From the NCBI GenBank assembly GCA_963854735.1, contig OY978100.1, positions 1,302,001 to 1,366,000 of the forward strand: 64,000 nt of DNA, in the 5' to 3' direction. A program made the position numbers and the translations under genes. Positions 15,901 to 60,924 of this stretch are shown here, in pieces. The notes beneath the pieces were generated by a model, which was not told where the DNA came from, made no database searches, and saw nothing but the letters and a program-made list of their open reading frames with translations. Within the stretch, counting starts at the first letter, position 1. Each line of letters opens with the position of its first letter. This DNA comes from Marvania coccoides (taxonomy: Eukaryota > Chlorophyta > Trebouxiophyceae > Chlorellales > Chlorellaceae).

Positions 15901-16268
15901 GGGAGGCTGCGGCGTGTATCGATGCAGTGGACGAGGCAATGCAGGAGCGGCTGGCAGAGTTGGAGACCGGGTGTGTGCGGCTGCAGCAGGAGCGGGACGC
16001 TCTGGCCGCGCAACTGCAGGCCCAGACTGCACGCGAGAGGGAGGGCGAGGGCCAGCAGCGCTGCGACCGCGTGGACCTGCTTGCTGAGCTGGCGCAGGTG
16101 TCGGCCAGCTTGCAGGAGGAGCGGCAGCGGCGGGAGGCGGTGCAGGAGGCGGCACAAGCGGCGCTGGAGGCGGCAAGGCCTCGCAGCGGTGGGGTAATTG
16201 CACCAAATCCAGTGCGACAGCTGCAGCGGATTGCCGACGAACTGCAGGGTCTGGGCTGTGATGTTTGA
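12954..16268 (+). CDS. Large coiled-coil protein of unknown function
   Basis: Exons 12954-13148, 13239-13500, 13600-14126 and 14265-16268 give 995 aa. Nearly the whole protein is Glu/Ala/Leu/Gln/Arg-rich heptad sequence typical of long parallel coiled coils. Breaks occur near an Ala/Thr/Pro linker (about 465-490) and a Ser/Pro/Thr stretch (about 645-665). No catalytic motif is seen. Architecture alone would suit a centrosome/basal-body, Golgi or cytoskeletal scaffold, but no family could be recognised. Introns 2 (99 nt) and 3 (138 nt, GC donor GAG|GCAAGC) are divisible by three and stop-free, so unspliced translation shows a false hydrophobic segment (LFSFLMLLLSLINYVF) that should not be read as a membrane helix. 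Confidence 0.8.
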
Positions 16269-16665
16269 TTTTTTTTTTTTTAATTAATTAATTAATTAAT
16301 AATTATTAAAAAAAAATCAGCGCCCAGACGGGCTTTTGTAATGGCCCAAATGGCATTTGCAGACTATGCATTTGTGTAAGTAATGAATTGATTTGAAAGC
16401 CTGATGTGCCTGTGTGCTTCATTCAGGTTTTGTGTGTCTTGCTCTTATGTGTCGCTGACGAAAAGAAAGTGTTCTAAAAAAACAAGCTCCGACGGCGATA
16501 TACGTAAATATCAACAGAGGACCACCCAGTAACATATATATCGGACGTAAAACTACTTGGTGAGCTCCTATTTCGGCCGCCTCTCGTCTACACAATTTAT
16601 GATCGCGAAATAAACGATTCAAAGCGTCACACTCACTGCTACGTGTTTTTCCCGCAGGACCCACC
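16269..16665. other. Spacer upstream of the secreted-protein cluster
   Basis: It contains a (TTAA/ATTA)n-like run at 16270-16300. Near the next gene there is a pyrimidine tract and cag at 16651-16657, probably a 5'-UTR splice acceptor 8 nt before the ATG. Confidence 0.45.
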
Positions 16666-17280
16666 ATGAACCTCCTCTTCCTTCTTTATACTATTGCTCT
16701 GGTCGCCCCAATCGCCCAGGTGGCCGCCCATTCTTTTACACCTCACCATCCTTATGTCCCACGGAAATGGAGGATTACCAAGTGGAGCCATAAGGTGGTG
16801 GTCCTCCCTCTCAAGGGCAAGTGGAAGGACGTGAAGATGATCGCCAAGAACAAGTACGAAGTCAGGAAGTCGGTGACCATAGTTGGAGGCAAAACTGGAC
16901 ACGCCAAAATTGCCGTCTACGCCGACTGTAACGCCTCCAAGACCAACCCCGTGAAGCTTAGTTTCTACCCGCAATCTAAGGTCATCAAGTTCAAGATCGG
17001 CAAGGCGGAGGAATTCAAGTACAAGGAGATTGTATCGCTCAAGCCTGGCGTCGCCTTCAAGAAGCAGGCTCGATGCAAATCCTACATTTTCATCGACGGC
17101 AAGAAGCAGCCCACCGACATTGACGTGAGTTTATTTCTGATGGAATTATGCGCGGGGTTGGGCAGTCACAGTTATTCTTAGATAGTTCTTCTACTCACCA
17201 CACGATGCAATGCATCCCTCCTCCTGCAGACCATCATTTTCAACGTCCCTAGCAACCCCAGCGGTGCTCATGGCAAGTAA
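16666..17280 (+). CDS. Small secreted basic protein, tandem family member A
   Basis: Exons 16666-17124 and 17230-17280 give 169 aa. Residues 1 to about 21 (MNLLFLLYTIALVAPIAQVAA) are a signal peptide. The mature protein is Lys-rich and has no recognised domain. It shares with the three genes downstream a LP..G segment, a Cys followed by NASKTNP, a K-Y/F-K..(V/I)SLK.GV.FKK block, a second Cys (ARCKSY), and a C-terminal PSG. The middle intron of B, C and D is absent here, and the last intron is present at the same place as in B and C (after ...DID). A cag acceptor 8 nt before the ATG suggests a 5'-UTR intron. It is the most divergent copy together with D. Function unknown. Confidence 0.85.
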
Positions 17281-18804
17281 TTGACATATAATTTCGGCCC
17301 TTCGCTGAATCATTGCATATTTCTCATTTTTTCACCGCCTTTTGAGAGCTCATTGTTGCCCAACCGTGAAACCCTCCGCTGCCCAAACCATTGCCGCCCC
17401 GCCAAACCAATTGTTATTTGCAATAGTCCTATTTTTCTCATTATTACAAGGTGATGATATTCATTTCCCTTCTTTGAAAAGTCGGTTATTATTTAACAAC
17501 ACATTTGCTATTATATTCAAATTATATTCAAACAAATCTAGCACCTCTAAAACATTTCCCTCGGTATCTTTCATTCAGCCGTCTTTGCGCATGTCAATGT
17601 CAAGTAGTATTATGGTGCATGACGGGTTGGGTCGGTGCTGCCCTGGGCAGTTACTCTCGAATGGTGCAGCTTTCACGAAATGTGGTTGAAGCGTTACATT
17701 GCTTTCGTTCCCTTTCATGTTTATCCCTGCTAAATTTTCCCCCGTTCTAAGGTTTCAAGGTTCTACATATTCTAAACCATTTGTAAAACCTGAAAACCTG
17801 AATCATATCTAATGTTATCTTTTCATATTCTAACGTTATATTTTTTTCGTATCTTTAGCGCCGCCATCCATTTCTCTCTCAGCATTACTACATATTTTCA
17901 TTTTTATTGATATTTTCATACCTCAGTGATATTCTGCAAGAACGGCTGCGGGTGTAATTCTTTAATATACTTTTTTCCTTTCACATGCCCAGTGTGTTTG
18001 AAAGAGACCTGCCTTATACTGGCCCCAAGGCAATGGCATTCGTGAGAGAGCATAAAGGTAATGGAATCTGGCAATTCATTAGAGTGACCTCTGATTTTTT
18101 CTCGAAAGGCGTCCAGCCAAGGCCTCTCTCAAAGGAGATTTTTTTATTATCTCTCCTGAGCTTAGGCATGCATTCTTCCCTGGCTGCAACACCAGATTAA
18201 ACAGTAGGCGTAAAAATGTCTCACATGACGCCCTGCTTCGCAGCGCGCGCTTTTTCTGCCCCAAAGTGCCGGAGAGAAATATCGGGAGTATATAGAGGCG
18301 GGTCGCAACCGCGGCAATCCATCAAAAATTGACAACAAATCTGCTGCACATAGGGAGGGTTGTGAGAACAATGGGTTTGGGGGACCGACAGTTCATGTTT
18401 GACTAACCGATCACATTGAGCATTTCATCCTGCTATCCATGTAACTGTGCTAATTGCAATATATATGGAGTTGGGTTGTTATTTAAAGGGAGTGGTCCTT
18501 TTTATAATACGGAAATTGAAGCAGCTAAACATGATACGGAAGCTGACACCGGCATCGACGCGGCCCTTCGCTTCTCCTGTCCTCCACGTCGATCTTTAAA
18601 ACATTTATTTTGACTATCAGCAACTTAATTGCTTAATAAAAGCGAGGTGAGGGCAATTGCTGCCTGGTTGCATTGTAGCAGTAAAACAATTTGTGTCTAT
18701 ATCTCACAAGCTCGCCATTTTCACGCCGCTCGCCCGGTTTCACGTCTCCGCACAGTTGATGTGTTCTAACGTATCAAATGACCATGTTGCAGGCACACAG
18801 CACC
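17281..18804. other. Spacer between secreted genes A and B
   Basis: AT-rich and lacking long coding-like frames. Short plus frames at 17342-17689 and 17985-18200 have no similarity to the gene family. A possible 5'-UTR acceptor (gttgcag) lies 12 nt before gene B. Confidence 0.4.
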
Positions 18805-19506
18805 ATGAAGCTCTCGTTCGCCGCTCTCCTTCTGATCGCATTTGCTGCGCACGCAGCTGCTGGATCTGATGACCACCACAGCTCTGGCTGGTATCCTTCT
18901 CCTCCCAAGACTGTCAACATTACCCCCAAGCTCGTCGTCCTTCCCCCCTACGGCTCCAACGGCCCCAAGGGCTGTGACTTCAAGAAGGTTGGCGCCACCA
19001 AGTACACTGTGACCAAGACCGTCACCGTCAAGGGCCACTCCCACAAGAAGCTCTTGGTCAAGATGGTGTCCCCTTGCACAACCAGCAAGACCAACCCTCT
19101 GTCCATCACCTACGAACCGGCCTACAGAATGATCGAGTTCAAAGGTAGGGAGGGCTGTGGAAGCAGCACTGCGTGCTTTTATCTTGGCCAGTGGGAGCTA
19201 GGTTACACCCCGACCCTTTTGATTATTTTTAATGTGCGCAGGAGGATACACCGCCGTCAAGTTCAAGCAGATCATTTCTCTCAAGAAAAACGTGCCGTTC
19301 AAGAAGAACGCGGGGTGCAAATCACACAGCGTTGTCGGCAAATATGCGTTTAAAAGCATTACAGATGTAAGCAATTATTCCTCCTTCTGTTGGCTCAAAG
19401 TAAACCGCCGTCTCACCTAACCCCCCTTTTCTCCTTCTCCTTCTGTGATCTGCAGACCGTCATCTGGAAGAAACCCGTTGCTCCCAGTGGATACCACCAC
19501 GCGTAA
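18805..19506 (+). CDS. Small secreted basic protein, tandem family member B
   Basis: Exons 18805-19144, 19242-19366 and 19456-19506 give 171 aa. The ATG at 18805 is chosen because it starts directly with the signal peptide (MKLSFAALLLIAFAAHAAAG); the ATG at 18778 lies upstream of a likely 5'-UTR acceptor. The mature part begins with a short Asp/His/Ser stretch, then YPSPPKTVNI, PKLVVLPPYG, KYTVTKTVTVKGHSHKKLL, SPCTTSKTNP, VKFKQIISLKKNVPFKK, AGCKSH and a terminal VAPSGYHHA. Exons 2 and 3 are almost identical to those of C, showing a recent duplication. An extra Cys (GCDFKK) is not conserved in the other members. No known family recognised. Confidence 0.88.
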
Positions 19507-21206
19507 ATCCATTTTCGAGTGCACCCTTCTTCCCATCAGAAATTAATGAATAAATAATTAATCGAGTTTGTAGAAAATACGTTATTAGTTTATTTATTTT
19601 CCCCTCCCTGTCCATACATCTTTACCACGTGCCCCGAAAGTCCATACCATGAAATTGACACCACCTGTTTATACGTACTTGACATCTCTCTTTGAATGCC
19701 GTCCATGACCCCTTCCATTACTGCCACCGCCACCGCCGCTGCCGCCATTGCCGCAGCCGCCATTGCCGCCGCCGCCACAGCATGATCTACACATTTGCTA
19801 TCTTTTCTATTCTTGGAATAAGAATTAACTTCATCAAATATATCATTTGTTTTTCTCCTGAGTATGCTTTTCTTCCCCCGAAACATTCTTTTGTCCCTTC
19901 TTCTGTGGTAGTTGGCTCGCTCAACAGTGATATAGTGGGAAACCGCAGCTTTGCCACCGCCGATATTTGAGTAACTGTGCAAAATTTACATCTATCTAAG
20001 AGAAAAGAGACGGGGGAGGATTTTTTCATGCAGCCGCATTAAAGAAAACAAAGCATAGTCAAAATGCTTCCCCACGCACGCGCAACAATAATCTCTGCCT
20101 GGCACCTGCACCTGCGACCGCCAGACTGGCATTGCAAACTTTTTGATTTAGCAAGGTTCTAGCAACTTGCTTCAAGCCAAGGGATAGTTTCATCGCCAGG
20201 AGGCTCTAGGGACACCAGCAGAAGGTGCCGTTTTCTCTTCTCGTTCATCTTATAGTGACGCCTGGCTTTCAAAACAAAGAAGTCAGCTTTCAAACAAGAT
20301 TGTTCTCCGGTGCAGCTGATAGCACTACTTGGCTGTTAACAACAAGCATACACATACAAGTGTAGAAAGTTTACACTCCGCCCAGAGATGGCAACAAGGG
20401 CCACCAGCAGAGAGGCAAGCTTTGGTACGTGAACGGGCTCCCTGGGGAAGTTGGAATTTACAATACGTTGGATTCATTTTTCATATGGATCCTGCGGCCT
20501 CATATGGATCCTCCGATCCACATACCCCTCCCCACTTCGGGTGCCAACAACATATTCTTGAATATTGAAGAATTGAAACGGTGGGTGCGCATGGAGTCGC
20601 TTTCTCTTAGAAACGTCCCTGGCACCGTAATCTTTCCTCTCCAAAATAGAGACGATGACTCGGATCGCATGAGGGCTTGCTCGCGGGCCAGCGCGATCCG
20701 CGCGGCGGAGTCGAAAATTGCGTCGCAATAGAGGCAATGGCCAGCAATTTCACATACACAGATAAATCGTCTATTAAATATTTGAAAACTCGTTGATTCA
20801 TTACACCAATTTCTTCATGAACTCGCTCTTTCTCTTCTGGTTTCATGCTGAACCATCTCGGATAGACCAATTACCAATTGTTTGCTCGTTATAAGCTCGG
20901 GGGTTTGCGTTTTTAAATGGTCCTTGGCCTCTCTTCCCGCGTAAATTTGTACCGCACAACTGCATCGTCGATTAGGACCACCGAGGCGCTGCTTCCTCTG
21001 TATCTTTGTATTCCCATAATTTGTTGTGCAGCAGCTCCCTCGGTGAGTGCCCCCTCCCCCATAACATGGAACTGTTTCAAGGGCTGAAACTTGAATCTGG
21101 TTTTCGCAGCAAACGTTGCATCCATTTCCTCTCGCGCAATTCAATCCCCACGCTCCACCAATGCTTCTAACACACGAACTGGGTTCCTCTTTACAGGCGC
21201 AATAAG
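19507..21206. other. Spacer between secreted genes B and C
   Basis: It contains an imperfect GCC/ACC trinucleotide tract at about 19722-19785 and AT-rich sequence. A pyrimidine tract and ttacag at 21190-21196 form a probable 5'-UTR acceptor for gene C. No gene supported. Confidence 0.4.
19722..19785. repeat. Imperfect (GCC)n/(ACC)n trinucleotide tract
   Basis: About 20 triplets of gccacc/gccgcc/gccatt type in non-coding DNA. Confidence 0.75.
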
Positions 21207-21882
21207 ATGAACTCCTTCTCAATCCTAACTTTGCTTTTTGCCCTCGCCACTGTGGCAGCAGCTGGGGGCTATTATCCGTCTCCTCCCAAGACTGTCAACA
21301 TCCTCCCCAAGCTCATTGTCCTCCCCCTGTACGGCAACTACGGCCCCAAGGGCACCGACCTCAAGAAGATCGGCTATAACAAATACTCTGTCACCAAGAG
21401 CGTCATCGTCAAGGGCCACTCCCACAAGAAACTCTTAGTCAAGATGGTGTCCCCTTGCACCTATAACAAGAAAAACCCTCTCTACATCACCTACTACCCC
21501 ACTTATAAAATGGTCGAGTTCAAAGGTACGTCGGTGAACAAATTTGGGGAGTAAATGAGTTAGCGATAGCTCACCCATCCATCCTCAATTCAATTAAATT
21601 CTGCGGCGCAGGATCCTACACCGCCGTCAAGTTCAAGCAGATCATTACCCTCAAGAAAAACGTGCCGTTCAAGAAAAACGCGGGTTGCAAATCACATAGC
21701 GTTGTCGGCAAATATGCATTTAAAAGCATTACAGATGTAAGCAATTTTCCCCCTTTTTCTTCTTTCTTATGCGAAAAAGGAACTGCCGTCTCAGTGCCTA
21801 ACCCCCCCTTTTCTCCTTCTGTGATCTGCAGACCGTCATCTGGAAGAAACCCGTTGCTCCCAGTGGATACTACAACAATTAA
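21207..21882 (+). CDS. Small secreted basic protein, tandem family member C
   Basis: Exons 21207-21525, 21612-21736 and 21832-21882 give 164 aa. Residues 1 to about 19 (MNSFSILTLLFALATVAAA) are a signal peptide. The mature chain runs PKTVNILPKLIVLPLYG, KYSVTKSVIVKGHSHKKLL, SPCTYNKKNP, VKFKQIITLKKNVPFKK, AGCKSH and VAPSGYYNN. Intron positions and phases (1, then 0) equal those of B, and even the intron ends around exons 2 and 3 are conserved. A likely 5'-UTR acceptor lies 10 nt before the ATG. Two Cys are conserved across the family and could pair. Function unknown. Confidence 0.88.
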
Positions 21883-22600
21883 GTAAATGCGTGTTTGTGT
21901 TTTTGTGTTTCATTCCCGCGCGCAATCGTTCTGAGTAAGAATCGCTGTCGCAGATAACTACCGTAGTAATCTTCCATGTACTTTTTCGCACATTAACATA
22001 ATTCCGCAGTCGTGCGCGCATTGAACTGAATAGTTTCGTTAGGTAAACGAACCATATTTTTGGCCCTACATTTCATAGGGCCTTTACGCCATTTTCTATA
22101 CCGCCTCCGCCGTTTGTAGCATATATTAATTTATTTTTATATCTTTTGTTCTTGTGTTTGTGAAGATTAGTTTCCCTACTTATACAAAATTCTTCCTTTC
22201 TTTCAAGTGAATGAAGACCCCCCCCCCTCATTTTCCTCGTGTTTGTTTCGCTGAATAATGATCAGCGGGAAACAGAACTGCCATCGCCCCAGGTTTGATT
22301 TAATAAACAGAAAACGTGCACGCACTGAATTATTGCTAAGAATTATACCATGTAGCATTGCGATAAAGATAAATTATTACGTCTCAGCAGCAGCGCTCAT
22401 TGGCCTTCCTCGTTCAGGGCTTCCGCTGGTGCGCACTTGGTTCACACATAGAGAGAAAGGGGAGGAATTTCAGGGATCGCCTGCCGCCATGAGGAGGGTG
22501 TGGCGAAGAGATGAGGGCTAGCTTACTTGCTATAATAAACGAATTGATCAATTACAACAGATCTGGAGGCAAACACCGAGCAGCTGCAGATTGGAAAGAG
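21883..22600. other. Spacer downstream of secreted gene C
   Basis: AT-rich, with no supported gene. It leads into the palindromic repeat beginning near 22601. Confidence 0.4.
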
Positions 22601-23293
22601 TGCCACTCACCCTGCCACAGTAAGGCGGGGTACCCCCTTCCATCCGTGGGATCAACCTCAGGTACTGGGGGCGTACGGATACAGCATTACGCCGATACCG
22701 CACCGTCGCCCACAATGTAAGGCTGCTCTGGCCCCTGCCTTCCTGAGTCCCCCAACGGCGCGACCGACATGAATAAAAGAAAGGGAGGGGGGGAAATGGG
22801 GGGAAAGCAGGACTCTCCGGACGCCAAGCGGCCCGTCCGGTTGAGTGACCGCTGTAGATGGGAGGGGTGCTGGGCGGGCCAGCATTGCCCAAGCGCGAAC
22901 CACAAACCGGACGGGCCGTTTGTCGTCCGGAGAGGGCGGTATCTCACCTTTTCCATTCATGTCGGTCGCGCCGTTGGGGGACTCAGGAAGGCAGGGGCCA
23001 GAGCCTTACGCTGTGGGCGACGGTGCGGTTCCGGCGAGTGCAGTATCCGTACGTCCACAGTACCTGGGGTAGATCCCACCGGTGGAAGGGGGTACTCCGC
23101 CTTACTGTGGCGGGGTGAGCGGCACGTCACCTTGCAGGTCTCTATAAGAGCACCTTCTGTAGGAGACGTTACAACGATACGTTAAACCTTGTAAACCTTG
23201 TAAACCTTGTAAACCTTGTAAACCTTGTAAACCTTGTAAACCTTGTAAACCTTGTAAACCCGGTGTGGGGTTCGCGCTTGGGCAATGCTGGCC
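22601..23293. mobile_element. Palindromic SINE-like element (two head-to-head copies)
   Basis: The left arm (about 22601-22842) is the reverse complement of the right arm (about 22905-23125) at roughly 90% by eye, around a 62-nt loop. The right arm continues into a 3' end shared with 60240-60436 (CTTGCAGGTCTCTATAAGAG to TAGGAGACGT) and a 9-nt tandem tail at 23184-23260. A 25-nt segment of the loop (22877-22901) reappears exactly as its reverse complement at 23269-23293, just after the tail. The left copy lacks the tail. No protein is encoded; short frames inside are not real genes. Confidence 0.7.
23184..23260. repeat. Tandem AAACCTTGT repeat (about 8.5 units)
   Basis: A perfect 9-nt repeat directly after the conserved 3' end of the SINE-like element, at the place of a retroposon tail. 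Confidence 0.97.
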
Positions 23294-24009
23294 GAAAAGC
23301 AGAAAGTCAAGTGCTAAAAAGAAAGAAGGGCTTCGTTACCCCCCCGTTACTGAAGAAATTGTTTTAATACGTATAGTAGAGAGGTCTTAAAGTTCTAAAA
23401 TCTTAAAATAATTGAGTGTTGTTGTTGTGGGTGGTGTGCGTGAGGTTTTAAAAAGTTGCCCTGGCCGGGCCTTAATTGTTCCCCCTCCCCCCGTCCCAAT
23501 GCACTTGATTGCATATCACCCCGCCCTATTATGCAGAACAAGTCTGCTCTTCGCTCTAGATGATAATAAATCCACGCCAGTGTGAAGCCCTCTTATGCTC
23601 GATATGAGCGAATGGCCACTCCCTGCAAATTTAACTATACTGCAAAAAATATCTGCATTCAATTCGTCAGCTTGGTCGAGCTTGATTAATAAGCAAACCC
23701 CAGCGGCTGGGAATTGCGGCTATTCGACAAAAAATATACAATTGTTGACCCTGAACGTGACACGGCAATAAGGACCATGCCTGTGTGTCCCCAGCCCCAC
23801 CCAACCAAAAGTGGAGGGGGCATAGTAGCCCATCATCCACAAGCTAAACATGACTGTTTAATTCAAATATTATAAACTCCAATTGATTGCAACCGAGGCT
23901 GTAAGCATCTTTAGGTGAGGCAACGTTGTTAACTGCCCTCTGGAAATAGCAATATTAATGCTGCTGCACAAGGGTCTGAAATGGCGATGTGCTCTTCTCC
24001 GCAGTCAAA
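23294..24009. other. Spacer before secreted gene D
   Basis: AT-rich, with no supported gene. A pyrimidine tract ending in ccgcag lies 5 nt before the ATG of gene D, a probable 5'-UTR splice acceptor. Confidence 0.4.
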
Positions 24010-24613
24010 ATGAAGGCCGCGTCCATCGTCTGCCTAATTGCTTTGGTGCTGCAAGTGCACCAGGCGGCTGCTGGCCACATATACGAATTTAAACCAGTCC
24101 CGCAGCGCCGTCCCCCTCTCCGCGTTATCCGCATCACCCCTAGGGCGGTCTCTCTTCCTAAAGGCCCCGTGGGATCTTCCATGGTCAAGATCAGCAGCAA
24201 AGCCTACGCGATGACCACCACAGTGACCATCACCGGCTTTGGTTCCGCCAAGGTTGCCCTGAAGAACACCTGCAACGCTGACAAGAAAAACCCTATCTTC
24301 ATTGATTTTGTGCCCAACAGCAAGAATACAGTTGTCCGCGGTAGGTCAACAATTCGTGTTTGCTCAACGCATTCATGCTCAATGTTATTCCCGACATACT
24401 ATTGTTCTGCTGCTGTTGAAAAAAAACCACGTCGTGCCAATTGCAGGAACGGTCAAAGTTGCATTTAAACAGTTCATTTCCCTGAAACGTGGGGTTGTGT
24501 TCAAGAAGAATGCCAGATGCGATGTTTTTGCTTCCCTCAGCGGCGTGAACTTCCGCGGAGTGCGACAGAGGATTCTCTACAAGCCATCAGCTCCCAGTGG
24601 ACCTATTGGATAA
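24010..24613 (+). CDS. Small secreted basic protein, tandem family member D
   Basis: Exons 24010-24340 and 24447-24613 give 165 aa. Residues 1 to about 22 (MKAASIVCLIALVLQVHQAAAG) are a signal peptide. Shared family blocks are ITPRAVSLPKG, TTTVTITGFGSAKVAL, NTCNADKKNP, VAFKQFISLKRGVVFKK, ARCDVF and a terminal SAPSGPIG. It keeps the phase-1 middle intron of B and C but lacks their last intron, the reverse of member A. It is basic and Lys/Arg-rich. No recognised domain. Confidence 0.85.
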
Positions 24614-25333
24614 GCGATTGAGACATTTCGGAGCTGGAACAGCCGGTCCTTGATGCATTTTGTTTATCATGATTATGATTTGAGAATTCCCACGACCACC
24701 CCGCCGCTTTTAATTTACTTTCTGCTGCATGTGGAACAATCCACCCCCCATCTCTGCCGAATAAATAAATCGTCTGCTCCTATCTGATTATTACTGATGA
24801 AAGAATTTTTAAAATAAATTACAGCTTGTTGTCGCCAATTGTTCTTAGCAGCGTGCTTTTTGTCTCCTTCTGCATTGTTTACTCTCTAGGTCTTCCCGAG
24901 ATATAGATGACACTCATAATTTAAACTACTCAATTAGTAAACTTAGACGCAATATAACCGAAGAGCACATACCAGCAGTACTTCCTTCGGGCGACGGCGC
25001 TCTGCTGAATCCGTATCTTGGCGTCCAGTGCAAGCCCCTGATGATTTTAATGGTATAGTGTCAGTGGATTATTCTAATGCCATTCATGAGATATTCTTCG
25101 ATCTCAACCTAACTTGGCTCGCGAGGCAAGCTGCAAATAAAATATATACATTAGGCGGCGGGATGGGAATTTACAAATACACTAGATTTTAACGACCCTT
25201 TTTACAAATCGTGTATCATCCTTGGAACACTGTCTTTCTTATTTCACCTTCAAGATATAAGAAGCAGAGTTTCAACCAAGATGTATTTCGCTTTGATTGC
25301 GATTCGATTTGAAATCTAATCAAAAAAAATAAA
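24614..25333. other. Intergenic region, secreted gene D to amino-acid transporter
   Basis: AT-rich. A small dispersed-repeat fragment (ggcggcgggatgggaatt) lies at 25154-25171. No gene supported. Confidence 0.4.
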
Positions 25334-27137
25334 ATGGAAACCCGTGGCAAGGGCGACACACTGCGGCAGCCATTGCTTCAGACTCCCGCCGAAAATCCTC
25401 TCGAGCCGATCAGCGATGGCCGTCCGGGTGCTCACCCCCCTGCGCCTGAAGCTGCGGAGGTCTGCATCGCTGGCCTCAGCAACCATCCTCAGGTGCTCTT
25501 CCCTGGCAACACCGTTGCATTCAGCGTGATCCTGCTGGGGAAGGCCATTGTGGGCGCCGGCGCTGCCGCGCTGCCGACAGCGTTTGCCCGCTTGGGCGCC
25601 CTCACATCCATTCTCTTTCTCCTGGGCATAGGTAAAGTAAAACTACCAAACAATAAGACAACATTAAAGCTGCCTTATTTCAAGCTGCGGTTTGCCTGTT
25701 TTTTCGCAACCCTGCCGTGGTTTGTTTGCTTGTTTGTACGGGTTTTACCTTCTGACGCTAATTTTCTTGAGAATTTTCCTCACCTACTGCAGCGTTCATG
25801 ACGCACTTCAGCTTGGAGGCGCTGACCATGGGCATAGTGGCGTCCGGCCACTCAAACTACCCCGCGGCGGTCAGAGCTCTCATGGGTCGCCCTGCAGCCG
25901 CGTTCCTGGAGCTCTGCCTGGTCCTGCGCTGCGCGGGACTGATGATCGTCTACATTGTGATCGCCGCTGACATCCTGGCGGGGTCTGCAGCGCTGCCGGG
26001 CCTGCTGTGCGAGTTCAGCGGGGGGGAGGGGTGGTGCAGCGACCGCCACCTGGTGGCGGCGGCGCTGTGCGTCGCGGTTTTGGCGCCGCTGGTGAGCGCC
26101 CGTCGGCTGTCTTCCGCCAAGTGGACCTCCTTCATTGGGCTGGCCGCAGTCTGCGTGTGGGCAGCGGTCACCGTTGCTCTCGCGATTATAGCTGGAATGA
26201 AAGGATTAGCGCACCCGCTGGCGTGGCTGCCCGACGCAGAGGCGCTTGGCGGAGGCACAGTCGCCTCTCAGGTCACCGTAGCCCTGGCCACGCTGCCGGT
26301 GATCGCCACCGCCTTCACCTGCCAGATGACGATCGCCTTCATCGTGGGGGAGCTGCAGGACTTCAGCCCCTTCAAAATGTCAATGGTATCGGCGGCGGCG
26401 GTGGCGCTGTGCACGCTGGCCGTGTTTCTGCCGGTGGGGCTGGGGTCGTGCATTGTATTTGGCAGCCGGGTGCCTGCGGACGTGCTGGAAGACTTCAACA
26501 CCAAGTGAGATAGATTTGGTAGCTGCTGTTTATTTTATTTTTCAAATAATTTCTACACAGCAGAAACTGACGTTTGTGTTACTATTGGTACTTTGCCAGG
26601 GGCTTGTCGCACATCGTCGGCGCCGCAGCTGCTACCTCGCTGGGTTCTGCGGTGCGTCTCGGGTTCTTGCTTTCTATTCTAGCCAATTTCCCCATGCAAG
26701 TGCTGCCGTATCGCCAGTCGCTGCAAAGGCTGACGCTGGGGGACGAGCGGGAGTTTTCTGGAGTGGGGTTCTACGTCGTGACCTACTTCAGCCTCGTTCT
26801 GTTCTACTTTGTTGCGATGGCTGCCCGTTCTATCTGGGTGAGTAGAGTTCCACGCCTAGCCTACCTGCTTTCTTATAATTTATTTCTCCTGTTGTGTCAG
26901 ATATTTTTCACATGCCGTATGCCCCCCGCTGTGCTGCAGGTGCCCATTCAATTGGTGGGCGCAACCGCTGGCGCTGCCATTGCATTTTTCTACCCTGCTG
27001 GCGTCTCCCTGGCCGTGCTGCGGCTGGACGGGACCACCGCTGGGCATGGCTACTGGCGGTGGAATTCCTGGGGTTTGCTGGCTGTGGGAGCGGTGCAAGT
27101 CGTCACCGGAATTGGAGCAATTTTGTTGCACAAGTGA
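25334..27137 (+). CDS. Amino-acid transporter, AAAP (SLC32/36/38-like) family
   Basis: Exons 25334-25631, 25793-26504, 26600-26837 and 26940-27137 give 481 aa with about 10-11 hydrophobic helices. The family entry motif is in the first exon: NTVAFSVILLGKAIVGAGAAALP, the glycine-rich helix 1 of AAAP transporters. Later helices include VYIVIAADILAGS, TAFTCQMTIAFIVGEL and VQVVTGIGAILL. It probably moves neutral or other amino acids across the vacuolar or plasma membrane; the substrate cannot be told. The last intron (102 nt) is divisible by three and stop-free, so unspliced RNA would insert 34 residues (VSRVPRLAYLL onward). Confidence 0.88.
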
Positions 27138-30626: not shown

Positions 30627-32881
30627 TCACACCCCATCGCCATTTCTCTGAGACAGCAACCCCCTGACCTCCCCACCACCACTAGCAGGGTCGCTATCCC
30701 CCAGCGGCATGTACTGCGCCATTATCGCGCGCACCTCCGCCTGCATCAGCCCCCGCATGTACAGCCGGTACGCCAGGAACCCTCCCGCCGCCACTGCCGC
30801 CGTCAGCACCACAGAAATGGCCACAATGACGCCAGCGCTGACGCCCCCTGAGCCCCCTCCAGGCTCCGCGTGACACACCCCGTACTCCAAGTCGCAGTAG
30901 TCCAGTTTGCAGCGGGGTTCGCAGGTGACGACCCCCCGCCGCTCCACCGCTGAAAAGCACGCAGGGCAGCTGCAGTTGTGCAGCGGGATCTTGTCCACGG
31001 GCTGTCCGTGAGACAGCGCGTCGCGGTACGCCGGCAGATTGTCGTGGCATGCTGAAAACGTCACTTTTTTGCCCTTAACGGCGGCGTCTGTATGCCAGCA
31101 CCCCCCGTAGGTGTTGGCGCACTCGTCGGGGATGTCCTTCACGCATTCGTACCCCCCAAACTTGTTCTTGCACGCGCACCGCTCGCAAGTGCAGTCGGGG
31201 TCCAGCTGTGAGATGGAGAGGCACTCGTTGATATCTAGACATGTCTCGCTGCCGTCAGCCTCCTTGTGCGAGATAAACCCTTGCCCGCACGTGCAATTGT
31301 ACCCCGAGAACGAGGAAATGCAGGCGGTCTTGCCGTCGGTGCGGGCAGCGCAGTCGGCGTAGCCTTTGGCGCCCACCATGCAGGCATCGTCCACTGCTTT
31401 ATCGCACGCTGGGGGGCGGTTGCCGACCTCAAACCCGGCGCACAGCGCGCGCAGCACCTCCCCCACCGCCAACTTCCCTCGGTACTGCGCCCCGTTGACG
31501 CGCAGCGTGGGCAGGATGAAGACCTCGCCCTCGGCGCCGCCCCCCGCCTGCGCCGCCAATTGCTCCTCCATCACGGTGTGCGGGGTGTTGTCGTCGCGCG
31601 ACCCGATGCAGCGGTGCAGCTCGTCGGGGGAGCTCCACTTCTCGGTGTTCACCAGCTCAAACACCTCCTCTGCACACTCTGCACCGTACTTTTTGGACTC
31701 CATCGTGCACTGCTCCCCAAACCGCGTCACGTACTCCCACCATACCCACGGCCTGCCCGTGGCGTTCGCCAGCCGGTGCACGCACAGCTGCCGCAGGTTC
31801 TCCTGCACCACGTCTGCCCCCGAGTAGCCCTCGTGGATGGAACCGTCGGGATCAGGCACGCAGTACCGCCCGTGGTGGATGCACTGGCTCCTGCACTCCT
31901 CGGAGTCTCGGTACGACTCGGGGCAGGTCCACACGATGTAGTGAGGGGTGAACTTTGTCCACCCAGCAGCATCGAACTCCTTGGCAACGGGGACAAATGC
32001 TTTGATGAAGTCGCGCTGCACGTCGCACACCGGACCGCACTGGTCGTTGGAGTTGGTCCAGAACTCCCACTCCACCTGCTTCTGCCGCGGCAGCGCGTCC
32101 GTCCAGTCCATGGAGACGTAAACTTTGGCAGGGCCGGCTACGGCGCCGCGCAGCAGCGTCTTGAGCGCCTCTCCCGAAGACTTGGTGATGAAGGTGGCGG
32201 GGATGGTGATGTTGCGGAGATAGCGGTAGTTGACCTCGTCGTCGTCGTCGGGAGCCTCCATGGTGGTCATGCGATCGTCGTAAGAAACGATGACGGCGCC
32301 GCGGGCACCCGCCACCTGAGCGTTCCACACCTTTTGCGCAAACTTACAGGCGGTGGTGCCCGATTCGTTGGGCCCCCTGTCTATCAGCATGATGTACGTC
32401 TCCTTGTTGGGGCTGTCCCGGAGGTTGAGCCGCGGGGTGGCAGCGGTGAAGTCCTGGCAGGCGTACCGACAGGCGGGGGAGCAGGTGTAGTCCTGCCCAT
32501 ACTCCTTGTCGATATAAATCAGCTGGCCCCTGCGATAACGGAGGAGAAGGTTGGTGGAAGTGAGAAACGAGCAAGAAGACAGAGGACGGGCTTGGGCGGT
32601 GAAATGTGAAGGATGCTTCGCTCACATGAGGGCGCCGCCGTATTTGGGGGCCCCAAAGTTGGCCAATGCCATGTCGAACCCGCCAGGGTATTTGGTTTTG
32701 GCATCCGGCGGAAATGTGATCTGCAAGAGAAGGAGAGAAAAACCTGTGAGAATGTTGCAAGGAAAAGTTGAGCAGCATGTGGCAAGCTCGTTCGCACCTT
32801 TAACCCTCCCTGCTCAATAACAAAGCGAGCGGAACAACACACCACCACGCTCAAACACAATATCAGGGCCAAAAATCCCAT
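30627..32881 (-). CDS. VSR: Vacuolar sorting receptor (BP80/VSR type)
   Basis: Exons 32881-32798, 32720-32626 and 32529-30627 give 693 aa. VSRs carry soluble hydrolases from the trans-Golgi to the lytic vacuole. Order: signal peptide (MGFLALILCLSVVVCCSA), protease-associated domain (ITFPPDAK to about 160, including ARGAVIVSYDD), a Cys-rich central domain (VEWEFWTNSNDQCGPVCDVQRDF), EGF-like repeats with the calcium-binding DINECL, one transmembrane helix (GVSAGVIVAISVVLTAAVAAGGFLAY) and a short cytosolic tail with the sorting signal YMPL (YxxPhi). Length and architecture match plant VSRs. Confidence 0.97.
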
Positions 32882-60031: not shown

Positions 60032-60227
60032 TGTTTGAAACAGCAGCAGAAGAAACGGTCCACTGTTTTTTACGAGACCAACGCCAATTCTGCGAGTAAA
60101 TTTACTCCGTTCTTCATTGCAAAAACTGTTTCAATGGAAACAAAACACATTTCAAACGAGTCCAAGGCCATTGCACACAAAAACTCAAAAATAAAATCTC
60201 CACATCTTTCCATTAACCCATTAACCA

Positions 60228-60436
60228 TTTGTGGGCGGCGGAGCGGTCACCGGCGTAGTGGCAGTATCCGTACGTCCACCGTACCGGGGGTCGATCCCAG
60301 CGGATGGAAGGGGGTACCCGCCTTACTGTGGCGGGAAGTGGCACGTCGCCTTGCAGGTCTCTATAAGAGCACCTTCTGTAGGAGACGTAACAAACAGATG
60401 TAAACCCATTAAACCCATTAAACCCATTAACCCATT
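60228..60436 (+). mobile_element. SINE-like element, single copy with tandem tail
   Basis: About 160 nt shared with the right arm at 23000-23180: GGCAGTATCCGTACGTCCAC, then GTCGATCCCAGCGG, GGAAGGGGGTACCCGCC, CCTTACTGTGGCGGG and the 3' end GTCTCTATAAGAGCACCTT to GGAGACGT. TAGTGGCAGT and GGGTCGATCCC, about 40 nt apart, resemble box A and box B of a tRNA-type promoter. A tail of AAACCCATT units (60402-60436) follows. Confidence 0.65.
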
Positions 60437-60924
60437 CTTTAGCTTTTATCGAAACTTTTTCCTTCAAATTTGCTGCTTTTGGGAGAAAAATACTCTAAAT
60501 GACGTACTATATGCAAGGCATTGCTGTGTGTTTGATACATCTGCTCGTCTGGTAATGAGGGAGTCGAGAGCATCGCCGGCACACTCAGTTACCGCATTTG
60601 CATGGATTTTCGGGCTAAGAATGCAATGTTTGATTATGCATCCTCGTCGTGCTTTCTCCCTTGCTCTCTGGTCTATTTCCTTTACCTTTCTCTTGTGCCA
60701 CTGCATTCTCCGCAGCAGGCATCCCAATGTGAGTTTGCCTGAAGGATTTCTCAGCTCTCCAAGCACAACCCAGCGCCAAGCACCTTATATTAGTCGCTAA
60801 TAAGCTGTATGGGCAGCACCCACGTTCTTTAACCTATCCAGGAAGCTGGCCATTCAGCATCTCTGATCCACATCATTTCCCCCAGGGAGGTGCCCCCACC
60901 AAATGTATTGCATCTCTGACATTA

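Follow-up and report, generated by a model that had tools for sequence, protein, structure and literature searches.

Algal non-specific lipid transfer proteins are, according to PMC9832785, small, basic and secreted, with an eight-cysteine motif and a helical fold. Four genes of Marvania coccoides (A-D), which lie in a stretch of 64,000 nucleotides (the window, C4:1302001-1366000; the genome has 22.46 Mb in 15 contigs), code for proteins that resemble these lipid transfer proteins in being small and basic and in their predicted secretion. They differ from lipid transfer proteins as portrayed there in having two conserved Cys and predicted beta strands. The first-pass annotation had treated A-D as a tandem cluster of small, secreted, basic proteins and had suggested for them a role at the cell wall, in gametes or at the interface with hosts or microbes. 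Tandem arrangement, predicted secretion and basicity all hold for A-D, but this unit is too narrow, as the cluster is only one of seven loci of a family with 12 genes. The eight-cysteine motif is absent from all 12 proteins, each of which has two conserved Cys, and the model of A shows strands, at moderate confidence, where a lipid transfer protein would show its helical fold.

The genome was searched with B, A, D, F1, G, I, H, J and a family consensus. In these searches combined, 12 family genes were found at seven loci, eight of them outside the window, and these counts are lower bounds (Table 1). The consensus search (E<=5) returned 19 pieces, which touch all 12 genes and nothing besides. 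Two weak matches were left out of the family: C1:613263 (E 0.83) and C4:781024 (E 0.03), the latter in a frame that reads as diacylglycerol kinase-like. All 12 spliced frames are open, and the gene models are single-domain with 147-217 residues.

Homology of the family members is firm at the sequence level. For leave-one-out profiles, chains were cut after the signal region, F2 and G2 were excluded as near-copies, and 2000 shuffles were made per member; when B, C or E was tested, all three were omitted from the profile. All ten distinct members were clear of their shuffles, with 65.7-116.1 bits against a best shuffle per member of 8.1-20.5 bits. Members A-E scored 87.7-116.1 bits against profiles of the other members, the best shuffle reaching 20.5 bits, and so their resemblance goes beyond chance. 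When the profile of A-E was compared with that of F-J, the hhalign probability was 99.5. In the ten-member alignment, the columns after the signal that never vary comprise both Cys, the LP motif's Pro, a Val and a Gly in the second strand, a single Leu and the SG at the end. The terminus reads PSG in 11 of the 12 genes and ASG in I.

Intron positions are shared as well. An intron at site 1 (phase 1) occurs in seven of the 12 genes (B, C, D, E, G1, G2, H); it lies in a variable-length loop directly before the strand with the SLK-type motif, a match made by eye and good to one or two residues. Site 2 (phase 0), directly before the last segment, is occupied in eight genes (A, B, C, E, F1, F2, I, J), and in these eight a separate last exon bears the conserved C-terminal segment. 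Every gene has at least one of the two sites, and J has one further intron of its own. Ten of the 12 genes, all but F1 and J, have CAG or TAG within 16 bases upstream of the ATG (counted without a control set), hinting at a putative leader intron that ends directly before the start codon.

Within the cluster, the description made from the window alone proved accurate in most respects. Its bounds were exact, with 16666 as the first base of the start codon of A and 24613 as the last base of the stop codon of D. The four genes are arranged head to tail on one strand, their lengths fall within the 164-171 residues given before, all four spliced frames are open, and all introns are GT-AG. A hydrophobic N-terminus with a plausible small-residue cleavage site is predicted in all four, and each of them has the C-x5-NP block, the second Cys and PSG. 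Two of the proposed motifs have to be relaxed: LP..G is found in A-C, while D has the spacing LP-x-G, and (V/I)SLK is found in A, B and D, while C has ITLK. Lys-richness (18, 15, 17 and 10% of the mature chains of A-D) is less pronounced in D, which is additionally Arg-rich.

Table 1. Genes of the family and other features treated in the text (positions in the window, or in the contig where one is named).
Feature	Position	Strand	Description
Gene A	16666..17280	+	169 residues; exons 16666-17124, 17230-17280; single intron (site 2, phase 0)
Gene B	18805..19506	+	171 residues; exons 18805-19144, 19242-19366, 19456-19506; introns at site 1 (phase 1) and site 2 (phase 0)
Gene C	21207..21882	+	164 residues; exons 21207-21525, 21612-21736, 21832-21882; introns at both sites
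Gene D	24010..24613	+	165 residues; exons 24010-24340, 24447-24613; intron at site 1 only
Gene E	C10 265492-264797	-	genome search and gene model
Gene F1	C10 854346-853540	-	genome search and gene model
Gene F2	C10 858083-857289	-	genome search and gene model
Gene G1	C3 1308890-1308185	-	genome search and gene model
Gene G2	C3 1307238-1306533	-	genome search and gene model
Gene H	C6 743191-743748	+	genome search and gene model
Gene I	C9 750755-750226	-	genome search and gene model
Gene J	C4 675611-676361	+	genome search and gene model; start codon uncertain
Nested inverted-repeat (foldback-like) element	22600..23293	.	between C and D; multi-copy repeat outside the gene family
Vacuolar sorting receptor-like gene	30627-32621	-	single long frame
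Coiled-coil-like frame (long)	ends 16268		upstream flank of A-D; name is a reading of the sequence
Transporter-like frame	starts 25334		downstream flank of A-D; name is a reading of the sequence

Signal regions and cleavage points were called with a crude script, not with SignalP, so that cleavage points and mature compositions are approximate. By this script, all 12 proteins have an N-terminal hydrophobic segment, and no membrane-strength stretch follows it in any of them (largest 19-residue mean 1.23). The two conserved Cys are part of the mature chain in all 12, with a third in B only, at residue 57. Net mature charge is +19 to +24 in A-E, +12 in J and +1 to +6 in F1, F2, G1, G2, H and I. 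Basicity thus applies to A-D as described, but in its strong form it is the trait of a subfamily, since E (+24) is the only other member above +12. It can be argued from the seven less basic members that the property shared by the family is the scaffold and not the charge. The most variable parts are the N-terminal linkers and the tails: F has KPA repeats, B and E have ends rich in His, and G has an Asp run.

The model of A (residues 1-153) is all-beta with seven strands (mean predicted local distance difference test score 70.1, predicted template modelling score 0.60). Its only helix consists of four residues in the signal region, and the remainder, at moderate confidence, is strands and loops. 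Immunoglobulin (Ig)-like domains are among the top structural matches of this model. Judging from the model, the family proteins probably fold as a small Ig-like beta-sandwich, in which the two conserved Cys would be joined by a disulfide.

The statement that A-D belong to no recognised family was upheld in the Pfam, PDB-sequence and protein-collection searches. No characterised family significantly matched all four, the result named in advance as the one that would speak against it. In Pfam, where HMMER filters drop most weak matches, A-D had no match at E<=5, and the 10 members (E<=10) had three matches of one member each, the best at E 0.2. NCBIfam (E<=1) gave four such single-member matches (best E 0.08) and PHROGs (E<=0.1) two, to nameless families (best E 0.014), while no PDB sequence matched the ten-member profile at E<=10. 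A protein collection with about 5.8 billion entries, searched through shared 5-letter words, gave nothing for A-D at E<=1 among 1575 candidates, nor for the 10 members at E<=10 among the best 7995 candidates by shared words. The KPA repeats of F1 may have crowded this last list, so that the ten-member search counts for less than its size suggests. Pattern searches with B gave 4 matches in viral contigs and 186 in bacterial and archaeal contigs, none of them confirmed; both sets may lack records that come from this genome or lie close to it. Among the papers listed in literature searches, none appeared to deal with the 12-gene family, as judged mainly from titles and the openings of abstracts.

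The vacuolar sorting receptor-like gene of the window served as a control and matched at least 160 proteins at E<=1e-20 among the best 7992 candidates. Among the matches listed, the proteins of Parachlorella kessleri and Chlorella sorokiniana are each 64% identical to the query across 93% of its length, and other fragments reach up to 78%. Judged by this single gene, the alga most likely stands close to the Chlorella group. As this gene matched proteins from Chlorella, Parachlorella, Micractinium and Coccomyxa, these algae are represented in the collection; for this one gene, no near relative of Marvania coccoides is among the matches listed. The protein searches do not show absence from other algae, because shared 5-letter words are needed and the ten-member search scored only the best 7995 candidates; a diverged secreted orthologue without a common 5-letter word would escape. 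From its sequences, the family looks restricted to this lineage, with no relative detected outside this genome so far. Since the Pfam, NCBIfam, PHROGs, PDB-sequence and protein-collection searches gave no match of weight, the results support an undescribed family on a known type of fold.

Expansion of the family can be followed in part. C and B share 79% of their residues, and the tandem pair F1/F2 shares 97%. G1 and G2 have identical coding sequences and are also identical in 60 bases upstream, their start codons being 1652 bases apart; either one gene was duplicated in tandem very recently, or the assembly contains it twice by error. In a tree of 11 rows, with G2 excluded, B, C and E form a supported branch in which C is nearest to E, and therefore a copy appears to have moved from the cluster to C10 or in the reverse direction. 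As E falls among them, A-D are not one clade; the placement of A, D, H and I is not settled by this tree. The ratio of non-synonymous to synonymous substitution rates (dN/dS) is 0.30 for B/C, 0.57 for B/E, 0.37 for C/E and 0.36 for F1/F2, and 0.44-0.48 for A/B, A/D and D/B, where dS is near saturation. As the ratio is 0.30-0.57, and thus below 1, in all seven of the eight pairs for which it could be computed (the identical G1/G2 give none), the coding sequences are consistent with purifying selection. Silent third-position differences between B and C at conserved residues are more frequent in exon 1 (18/75) than in exons 2-3 (4/53; permutation p 0.012). The corresponding counts are 17/67 and 5/45 for B/E (p 0.053) and 17/79 and 8/44 for C/E (p 0.42). 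Gene conversion between B and C is suggested by these counts, but no more than suggested.

The cluster also contains a nested inverted-repeat element, which includes a 9-base tandem array at 23183-23254. Related copies are common in the genome, with at least 138 matching pieces (best 40 of 267 candidates scored). Copies also occur about 2 kb upstream of gene E (C10 267328-268074), and an open frame at window 60225-60450 reads like the same element, having peptide-level text in common with the copy near gene E. G+C content is 46-50% across the gene cluster (window 16001-26000) and 57-65% in the 4 kb upstream.

We tentatively favour the view that A-D are members of a lineage-restricted-looking family of 12 Ig-like secreted proteins, the basic branch of which binds acidic polysaccharide of the wall or matrix; this is quite possible, though short of probable. 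Each protein would be exported through the secretory pathway and would fold as one Ig-like beta-sandwich held by the disulfide of the two conserved Cys, with the N-terminal linkers, variable and rich in His, Pro and Lys, and the short tails pointing outwards. Binding to acidic polysaccharide would place the basic branch A-E in the cell wall or extracellular matrix, and the near-neutral paralogues may bind other surface ligands or act as structural parts of a coat. Variants would stem from tandem duplication and from the copy that moved between C10 and the cluster (C and E), perhaps also from exchange between B and C. The high charge of A-E, the tandem arrangement, the lack of detected outside relatives and a dN/dS of up to 0.57 (B/E) would also suit defence proteins, secreted against bacteria, fungi or competing algae, with negatively charged surfaces as their target and tandem duplication as their source of diversity. 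We regard this as unlikely, as a predicted beta-sandwich of about 16 kDa with two conserved Cys is not a short amphipathic or Cys-knotted peptide, as near-neutral paralogues exist, and as dN/dS gives no sign of whole-gene positive selection in the seven computable pairs. A role in sexual reproduction or cell-cell recognition, with proteins displayed or released by gametes, has a rather slim chance: the structural match to HAP2 ties with many unrelated Ig-like domains, dN/dS is moderate, and a membrane-strength hydrophobic stretch past the signal is missing.

Extracellular handling of metals or phosphate, with metals bound by A, B and E through their His-rich linkers and tails and by G through its acidic tail, is improbable. 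The crude mature chains of A, B and E do contain six, eight and eight His, several near the termini, and G ends in the Asp run and three Arg. However, the other nine members (C, D, F1, F2, G1, G2, H, I, J) have only one to four His, and metal binding therefore cannot be the common function. It is a long shot that the proteins self-assemble into an extracellular coat or fibre, where the conserved C-terminal segment would complete the sandwich of a neighbouring Ig-like unit and basic and acidic-tailed paralogues would form different layers. That no protein is made at all, the gene models being wrong or the genes decaying pseudogenes, is hardly credible: the region is AT-richer than its surroundings and a repeat has inserted, but all 12 frames are open with introns at matching sites, and dN/dS is below 1 wherever computable.

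The coat and matrix proteins of Chlorella-like algae are much less known than the sugars. With its 12 intact frames, introns at corresponding sites and clear signature, the family can be taken straight into secretome studies, and it allows one to test how orphan extracellular families emerge from a common fold. Should the basic branch bind wall or mucilage polymers, it would open a new way into algal surface biology; otherwise this is one more lineage-restricted secreted family, and such families are common.

Several known systems with Ig-like domains can be compared. MSP/PapD-like proteins (PF00635) have Ig-like domains, but there is no sequence match to them for A-D (Pfam, E<=5) or for the 10 members (E<=10), and the hhalign probability between the family and the genome's own MSP-type protein is 0.2%. 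Known MSP/VAP proteins are cytosolic or cytosol-facing, whereas the family proteins bear predicted signal peptides. The C-terminal Fn3-like domain of plant subtilases (cucumisin, SBT3; fn3_6, PF17766) likewise had no match at the same thresholds; a genome-wide search for it gave no signal anywhere, 14 controls included, and is uninformative on the genome. Compared with these subtilases, the family represents a stand-alone domain that lacks the S8 peptidase part. Chaperone-usher pilins and chaperones (FimG, FimF, PapG, PapD) provide several of the best Foldseek matches and share an incomplete Ig-like sandwich with the model of A, but they are bacterial and without a PDB sequence match to the family, and the likeness may stem from a model that misses the last strand. 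The likeness to domain 3 of HAP2 is in the predicted fold only: that domain sits in a class II fusogen, while the family genes code for stand-alone single-domain proteins.
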